From contig CAUJIH010000022.1 of assembly GCA_963205275.1 (NCBI GenBank), forward strand, positions 1 through 64,000: 64,000 nt of DNA, read 5' to 3'. A program made the position numbers and the translations under genes. How positions within the stretch are numbered: position 1 is the stretch's first letter; each line of letters begins with the position of its first letter. Origin of the DNA: Verrucomicrobiota bacterium. Lineage in GTDB: Bacteria > Verrucomicrobiota > Verrucomicrobiia > Verrucomicrobiales > DEV007. Positions 38,897 to 39,104 of the stretch are shown here, one piece after another. Below the pieces are notes generated by a model, which saw nothing but the letters and a program-made list of their open reading frames with translations, did no database searches and was not told the origin of the DNA.

Positions 38897-38946
38897 TTTG
38901 TAGCTAGACAGCGAGAGGAATCGTCGTAGTATAAAAGCCTCTCGTT

Positions 38947-39006
38947 ATGTCGCTTCCGACACATTTCACCCATCCACTGCTTCTGCTGGTGTTCCTCCTC
39001 GGCTGA
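38947..39006 (+). CDS. Putative leucine-rich leader peptide of leuA
   Basis: ATG 38947 opens a 19-codon ORF (MSLPTHFTHPLLLLVFLLG, then TGA). Seven of the 19 codons are Leu, with four in a row followed by two more near the end. It lies about 100 bases before leuA and is followed by hairpins and a T-run. This is how leucine attenuator peptides look in Enterobacteria and Actinobacteria. No Shine-Dalgarno is visible, and hydrophobic codon runs also occur by chance, so it remains a candidate. Confidence 0.42.
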   Translation: MSLPTHFTHPLLLLVFLLG

Positions 39007-39030
39007 GTGCCGAGAAGAGTGTCGTTTTTT
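38957..39030 (+). terminator. Candidate attenuator structure in the leuA leader
   Basis: A 6-bp hairpin CTCGGC/GCCGAG (38998-39003, 39009-39014) covers the leader-peptide stop codon. CGACAC inside the leader ORF (38957-38962) is the reverse complement of GTGTCG (39019-39024), which directly precedes TTTTTT (39025-39030). Together they could form a terminator that a translating or stalled ribosome would disturb. A further stem ACTCTCC/GGAGAGT (39041-39063) lies between this and leuA. Confidence 0.38.
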
Positions 39031-39104
39031 CATCTCATCGACTCTCCGGATTACGGGAGAGTTGTGTCCGCGAGAAATCTTCTGTTATCCTAACTCAATC
39101 TGAT

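Follow-up and report, generated by a model that had tools for sequence, protein, structure and literature searches.

A conserved leucine-rich leader and covarying RNA junction upstream of leuA in Verrucomicrobiota, a probable ribosome-mediated attenuator

The window, by which we mean the whole 64,000-nucleotide stretch of Verrucomicrobiota DNA that was analysed, carries on its forward strand a gene for a protein of 563 amino acids, leuA, whose product we take, by recognition of its conserved sequence, to be 2-isopropylmalate synthase, the first enzyme of leucine synthesis. The gene is preceded at a distance of 98 nt by the TGA stop codon (39004-39006) of a short leucine-rich open reading frame encoding MSLPTHFTHPLLLLVFLLG*, in which six of the seven leucine codons (CTT, CTG, CTT, CTG, CTG, CTC and CTC in order) fall within the last nine. 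When the 200 nt before leuA were shuffled 200 times with dinucleotide content preserved, no equally leucine-rich open reading frame arose (p about 0.005). A preliminary description of the locus had reported this 19-codon frame ending in a GC hairpin, a CGACAC segment within it complementary to a GTGTCG placed directly before six T residues, and another stem between that tract and leuA; all of these are present in the sequence as described (Table 1). Upstream regions of ilvB and leuC in the same genome hold no leucine-rich leader.

Table 1. Features of the leuA leader region, in window positions.
Feature	Position	Strand	Basis
Promoter-like site, TAGACA-16-TAGTAT	38905-38932	+	Consensus scan; conserved in aligned upstream regions
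Leader open reading frame, 19 codons, 7 Leu	38947-39006	+	Sequence; homologous 23-codon leaders; shuffle test
H0 5' strand, CGACAC, leader codons 4-6	38957-38962	+	Pairs with 39019-39024; covaries
H1, CACC (38967-38970) with GGTG (38988-38991)	38967-38991	+	Pairing counts; blind helix test
H2, CTCGGC (38998-39003) with GCCGAG (39009-39014), leader stop codon in loop	38998-39014	+	Strongest covariation
H0 3' strand, GTGTCG, then T6 (39025-39030); candidate intrinsic terminator end	39019-39030	+	Sequence; T content in relatives
H3 hairpin, ACTCTCC (39041-39047) with GGAGAGT (39056-39062)	39041-39062	+	Covaries
ATTG[CT]G[TC]CC motif 3' of H3, in most relatives some 40-46 nt ahead of leuA	39062-39069	+	Alignment
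leuA, presumed regulated gene, 563 aa	39105-40796	+	Open reading frame; homologues in 95 of 96 related genomes (whole-genome search; some are distant paralogues only)

The leader ATG is preceded by a promoter-like box at a distance of 15 nt, and in the aligned upstream regions of relatives the same place is occupied by CTGGACAG together with a TACTTT-like box just before the leader ATG. From the position of this site the 5' untranslated region before the leader ATG would be very short. A second promoter before leuA (TTGYGY-N17-TTTAGT) was considered and rejected, as it fits one subclade by eye and the -10 element is absent in others that keep TTGYG. In one subclade the ATTG[CT]G[TC]CC motif resembles a -35 element and lies 17 nt from a TTTAGT box.

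The preliminary description had let the case for a leucine leader hang on its conservation in related genomes. There the leader is kept, and its leucine content is always high with the nucleotides varying. Nearly all genomes of the same genus carry a 23-codon leader before leuA, for example MKITTLSTKILVLPLSLELVLLG*, and all 24 aligned same-genus sequences keep the reading frame intact, at 23 (19, 24) codons and with four to nine leucine positions per leader. The start codon, the stop codon and the frame are retained throughout, gaps within the frame comprise whole codons, and the stop codon alternates between TGA and TAG. The window leader is four codons shorter than the other same-genus copies and more divergent, and the distance from its stop to leuA compares with 92-108 nt in those copies. 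Leucine enrichment exceeds that of shuffled sequence at 21 of 28 same-genus loci. The rare leucine codon CTA makes up 18 of the 169 leucine codons in the leaders, most of them at one position and so not independent events, compared with 19 of 1089 within the leuA genes themselves, an enrichment that fits the expectation for control codons. In two genomes, G016 and G018 (loci L023 and L027), leuA stands without this leader.

The leader codons also enter into three RNA helices, H0, H1 and H2, which covary among relatives, and a further hairpin, H3, follows before leuA. These helices were first spotted by eye on relatives and then tested over all segments in a blind comparison of 105 segment pairs from 24 same-genus sequences, in which each sequence contributed its best helix, to be set against those obtained with partners swapped between sequences. 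The first four ranks of the 105 were H2 (z 5.1), H3 (z 4.7), H1 (z 4.2) and H0 (z 3.2), where the ranks carry more weight than the z values because knowledge of the helices had guided the choice of segment boundaries and relatedness was uncorrected. Compensatory changes in H2 include CTCGGC/GCCGAG, CCGGGC/GCCCGG and CCAGGC/GCCTGG, and also CTGGGC/GCTCAG. H1, which reads AGCACC/GGTGCT in relatives, encloses the start of the leucine run and is paired in 135 of 144 cells across the 24 sequences. H0 occurs as GACAC/GTGTC, GACAAA/TTTGTC, AAAGAA/TTCTTT and GACGAA/TTCGTC, and is unclear in two copies (L007 and L016). Together the three helices form a three-way junction with CGACAC/GTGTCG as its closing helix. 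Pairing of CGACAC with a later GTGTC (39064-39068) was judged to be chance, as the later motif does not co-change with the 5' strand (L019, L005).

On alignment A1, both the number of paired cells and the covariation score of H0, H1 and H2 exceed those of all 500 shuffles and all slid registers. This MAFFT alignment misplaces H2 in L001-L005 and therefore understates it there, and an anchor-based count was used for H2. RNAalifold alone finds only H1. Folded on its own, the window leader does only slightly better than shuffled sequence (z -1.66), and the case for the RNA structure therefore comes from the comparison of relatives. That mild value is what would be expected if a chance reading frame had fallen beside chance stems, but conservation and covariation across the genus refute such a coincidence and leave it virtually no credence.

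A covariance model, R1, was built on the H0-H1-H2 junction with the window copy in its training set. Searched against the window's own genome it returns one copy, the query before leuA, with no second even at E <= 1, and across the family, the Akkermansiaceae, 30 of the 75 genomes yield a single copy each. These comprise 27 of 34 same-genus genomes and three genomes from three other genera (G042, G044 and G054). Six of the copies lie outside the training alignment (those three and G013, G014 and G024), and the copies adjoin the 5' side of leuA wherever leuA could be placed on the contig that holds the copy (G013 not included). Rfam gives no match at gathering score, the only match being a chance one to an lncRNA at E 2.8. 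A riboswitch or protein-binding RNA responding to leucine or a related signal, with the reading frame incidental, could account for the nearly invariant nucleotide stretches found in places, such as GAGCTGGTGCTACTGGGCT in one subclade. This is very improbable given that frame, start, stop and leucine run are kept as the nucleotides vary (in the choice of stop codon, in the CCG, CCA or CTC codons within H2 and through whole-codon indels), that other Verrucomicrobiota have leucine-rich leaders on unrelated RNA, and that Rfam holds no counterpart.

Where transcription might stop can be approached through the T residues that follow the helices. In relatives T accounts for 52% of the 8 nt that follow H0 and for 31% of the remainder of the leader. 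The T6 of the window is the cleanest such tract; some relatives have only scattered T there, and the tract is weak in L003, L004, L006, L008, L009, L017 and L030. A consensus scan of the window picks up no terminator in the interval from leader to leuA. Further downstream, the CCC of the motif 3' of H3 can pair in relatives with the GGG arm of H3 to give an alternative hairpin, H4, with a T-rich stretch after it; in the window H4 is weak. The same leucine leader might then act in textbook style, with H3 as antiterminator and H4 and its T-rich stretch as terminator before leuA, the two sharing the GGG arm. The strong covariation of H3 favours this arrangement, as does the presence, in some members of the genus and family, of good H4 helices with T-runs after them (TGTCGGG/CCCGACG in L010, AGCGGG/CCCGCT then T8 in L025, TTGGG/CCCAA in L035). 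However, covariation of H4 itself is marginal (z 1.7-2.1), the window H4 is reduced to CGG/CCG and lacks a T-tract after it, and no sequence able to mask the 5' arm of H3 was found. Among the constrained folds listed, H3 is the more stable in most sequences regardless of the ribosome and no consistent ribosome-dependent switch between H3 and H4 appears, and H3/H4 was rejected as a clean switch on account of this inconsistency. Termination at H4 is therefore unlikely and is less well supported than termination at H0, and a classical antiterminator and terminator pair is not supported in leaders of the window type.

The preliminary description had seen in the locus the classical attenuation layout. 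The part of this that stands is a leucine leader regulating leuA, which is well supported by the conservation of reading frame, leucine run, promoter and covarying helices. The remainder has to be revised, as CGACAC/GTGTCG is the closing helix of a junction rather than a simple terminator hairpin, the T-tract is weak in several relatives, and H3 and H4, the latter marginal, give no consistent switch in the folds.

Our results support a model in which the leuA leader is probably a leucine-sensing, ribosome-mediated leader-peptide attenuator. Transcription would start just upstream of the leader ATG, as the promoter-like site suggests, and a ribosome would translate the 19-codon leader. When Leu-tRNA is plentiful the ribosome would reach the stop codon and leave, the H0-H1-H2 junction would close before T6, and transcription would end before leuA. 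When Leu-tRNA is scarce the ribosome would stall at the first codons of the leucine run, codons 11-12 in the window leader. With a usual footprint, reaching some 18 nt upstream and 14 nt downstream of the codon in the A site, it would there mask the 5' arm of H1 and extend into the CGACAC of H0, the junction would stay open, and polymerase would enter leuA. Such a device would have the right sign, with leucine shortage turning leuA on, and would need one terminator and no antiterminator, because the stalled ribosome itself blocks the junction.

Several points count against H0 as the terminator. In L020, L024, L025 and L030 the first codon of the leucine run is codon 13, and a ribosome stalled there would touch only H1 and not H0, and in some relatives the T-tract is poor. 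A terminator closed over a multiloop is also unusual, and the model gives no role to H3 or to the conserved ATTGYG motif. Termination at H0 in particular is accordingly put forward as a tentative version of the leuA attenuator, somewhat more apt to fail than to hold. More doubtful again is the broader possibility that part of the Akkermansiaceae has a new architecture, in which the closing helix of a junction drawn largely from leader sequence serves as terminator and the ribosome sits on the junction itself with no separate antiterminator.

The leader might also work without intrinsic termination, either through Rho loading on an untranslated C-rich stretch or through control of leuA translation. 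The stretch from leader stop to leuA is C-rich and G-poor in relatives (C 0.34, G 0.17), several members have weak T-tracts, and the structure described for Actinobacterial leuA leaders is a pseudoknot and not a terminator (PMC1262725). In the window, however, the corresponding stretch has C 0.22 and G 0.23, and no helix sequestering the leuA start emerged when leader segments were compared with the 20 nt before leuA, the best p value among 105 tests being 0.016 and not significant. Control of this kind is quite unlikely.

Leucine-rich reading frames before leuA extend well beyond the genus. At p <= 0.05 against shuffles they occur in 12 of 19 other Akkermansiaceae, in 17 of 21 loci from other families of the order and in 14 of 35 from a broader set, and in more distant Verrucomicrobiota the leucine-rich leuA leaders are accompanied by different RNAs. 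Genomes of Limisphaerales type (L100, L102, L103, L105, L106, L111 and L122) have a strong terminator and then a T-run before leuA, and in at least five examples the last codons of their leaders, of MNRNLNLLLTNALLNGAAVGF type, pair with the 5' arm of the terminator. By their sequences these are textbook leucine attenuators. They share with the window the phylum, the gene and a leucine-rich leader, and differ in having a strong terminator and an antiterminator strand within the last leader codons, neither of which is clear in the window. The occurrence of leucine-rich leaders elsewhere in the phylum supports the window leader as a leucine sensor, with an RNA part that is not conserved between groups.

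A separate motif, CTNCGACTTA, which encodes Leu-Arg-Leu in frame within a leucine-rich leader, recurs upstream of leuA at 25 loci that span more than one phylum. In Verrucomicrobiota it is found at L038, L039, L043, L047, L051, L053-L055, L057-L059, L061-L065, L068, L088, L095, L104, L109 and L112, and elsewhere at L138, L145 and L150, in records titled Sphingomonadales, Sphingomonas and Actinobacteria bacterium. The heptamer CGACTTA occurs at 26 of 145 loci against 1.8 expected, a comparison in which related loci are not discounted. Leaders with CTNCGACTTA look like a second, wider class of leuA leader, perhaps one that relies on peptide- or codon-specific stalling. At four further loci (L093, L094, L096 and L108, in records titled Spirochaeta/Spirochaetaceae and Nitriliruptoraceae), leucine-rich reading frames, GC-rich hairpins and T-runs precede leuA.

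Most of what is known of amino acid attenuation comes from work on Proteobacteria, Firmicutes and Actinobacteria. The leucine leader of the window is real and conserved and, as far as could be searched, ribosome-mediated attenuation would be new for the phylum. This agrees with the preliminary description, which knew of no such case in Verrucomicrobiota; a literature search of open-licence papers, in itself weak evidence, found no such leader peptide. The locus would offer a concrete, single-gene and leucine-specific case in Verrucomicrobiota, in which relatives use other leader RNAs for leuA. As different leader RNAs stand before the same gene, it becomes possible to trace how attenuator architecture turns over around a single enzyme, and the leuA leader is testable with a small reporter.

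Among known systems, the enterobacterial leu operon attenuator (leuL; Leu_leader in Rfam) likewise has a short leader with a run of leucine codons before leuA. The window-type leaders resemble it in a leucine run rich in the rare codon CTA and in stem-loops that overlap the leader; they differ in matching no Rfam family and in having a three-way junction, a stop codon within a hairpin loop and no clearly supported antiterminator and terminator pair. In the Actinobacterial LEU element (Seliverstov et al. 2005), a pseudoknot has a base stem that pairs leucine codons with the Shine-Dalgarno box of leuA (PMC1262725). Both it and the window leader combine a leucine run before leuA with a conserved RNA structure. 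Unlike in the LEU element, the window leader codons pair with one another in H1 and with strands past the stop codon in H0 and H2, and a LEU-type base stem is not significant in window-type leaders when leader segments are compared with the segment before leuA (105 tests). The ilvB leaders of Corynebacterium, which have been studied experimentally, are described as an upstream reading frame with many branched-chain codons and with overlapping stems (PMC10272879; PMC11857589). They concern another gene and another RNA; what they have in common with the window leader is that a biosynthetic gene is preceded by a reading frame of this composition, with stems overlapping the leader.
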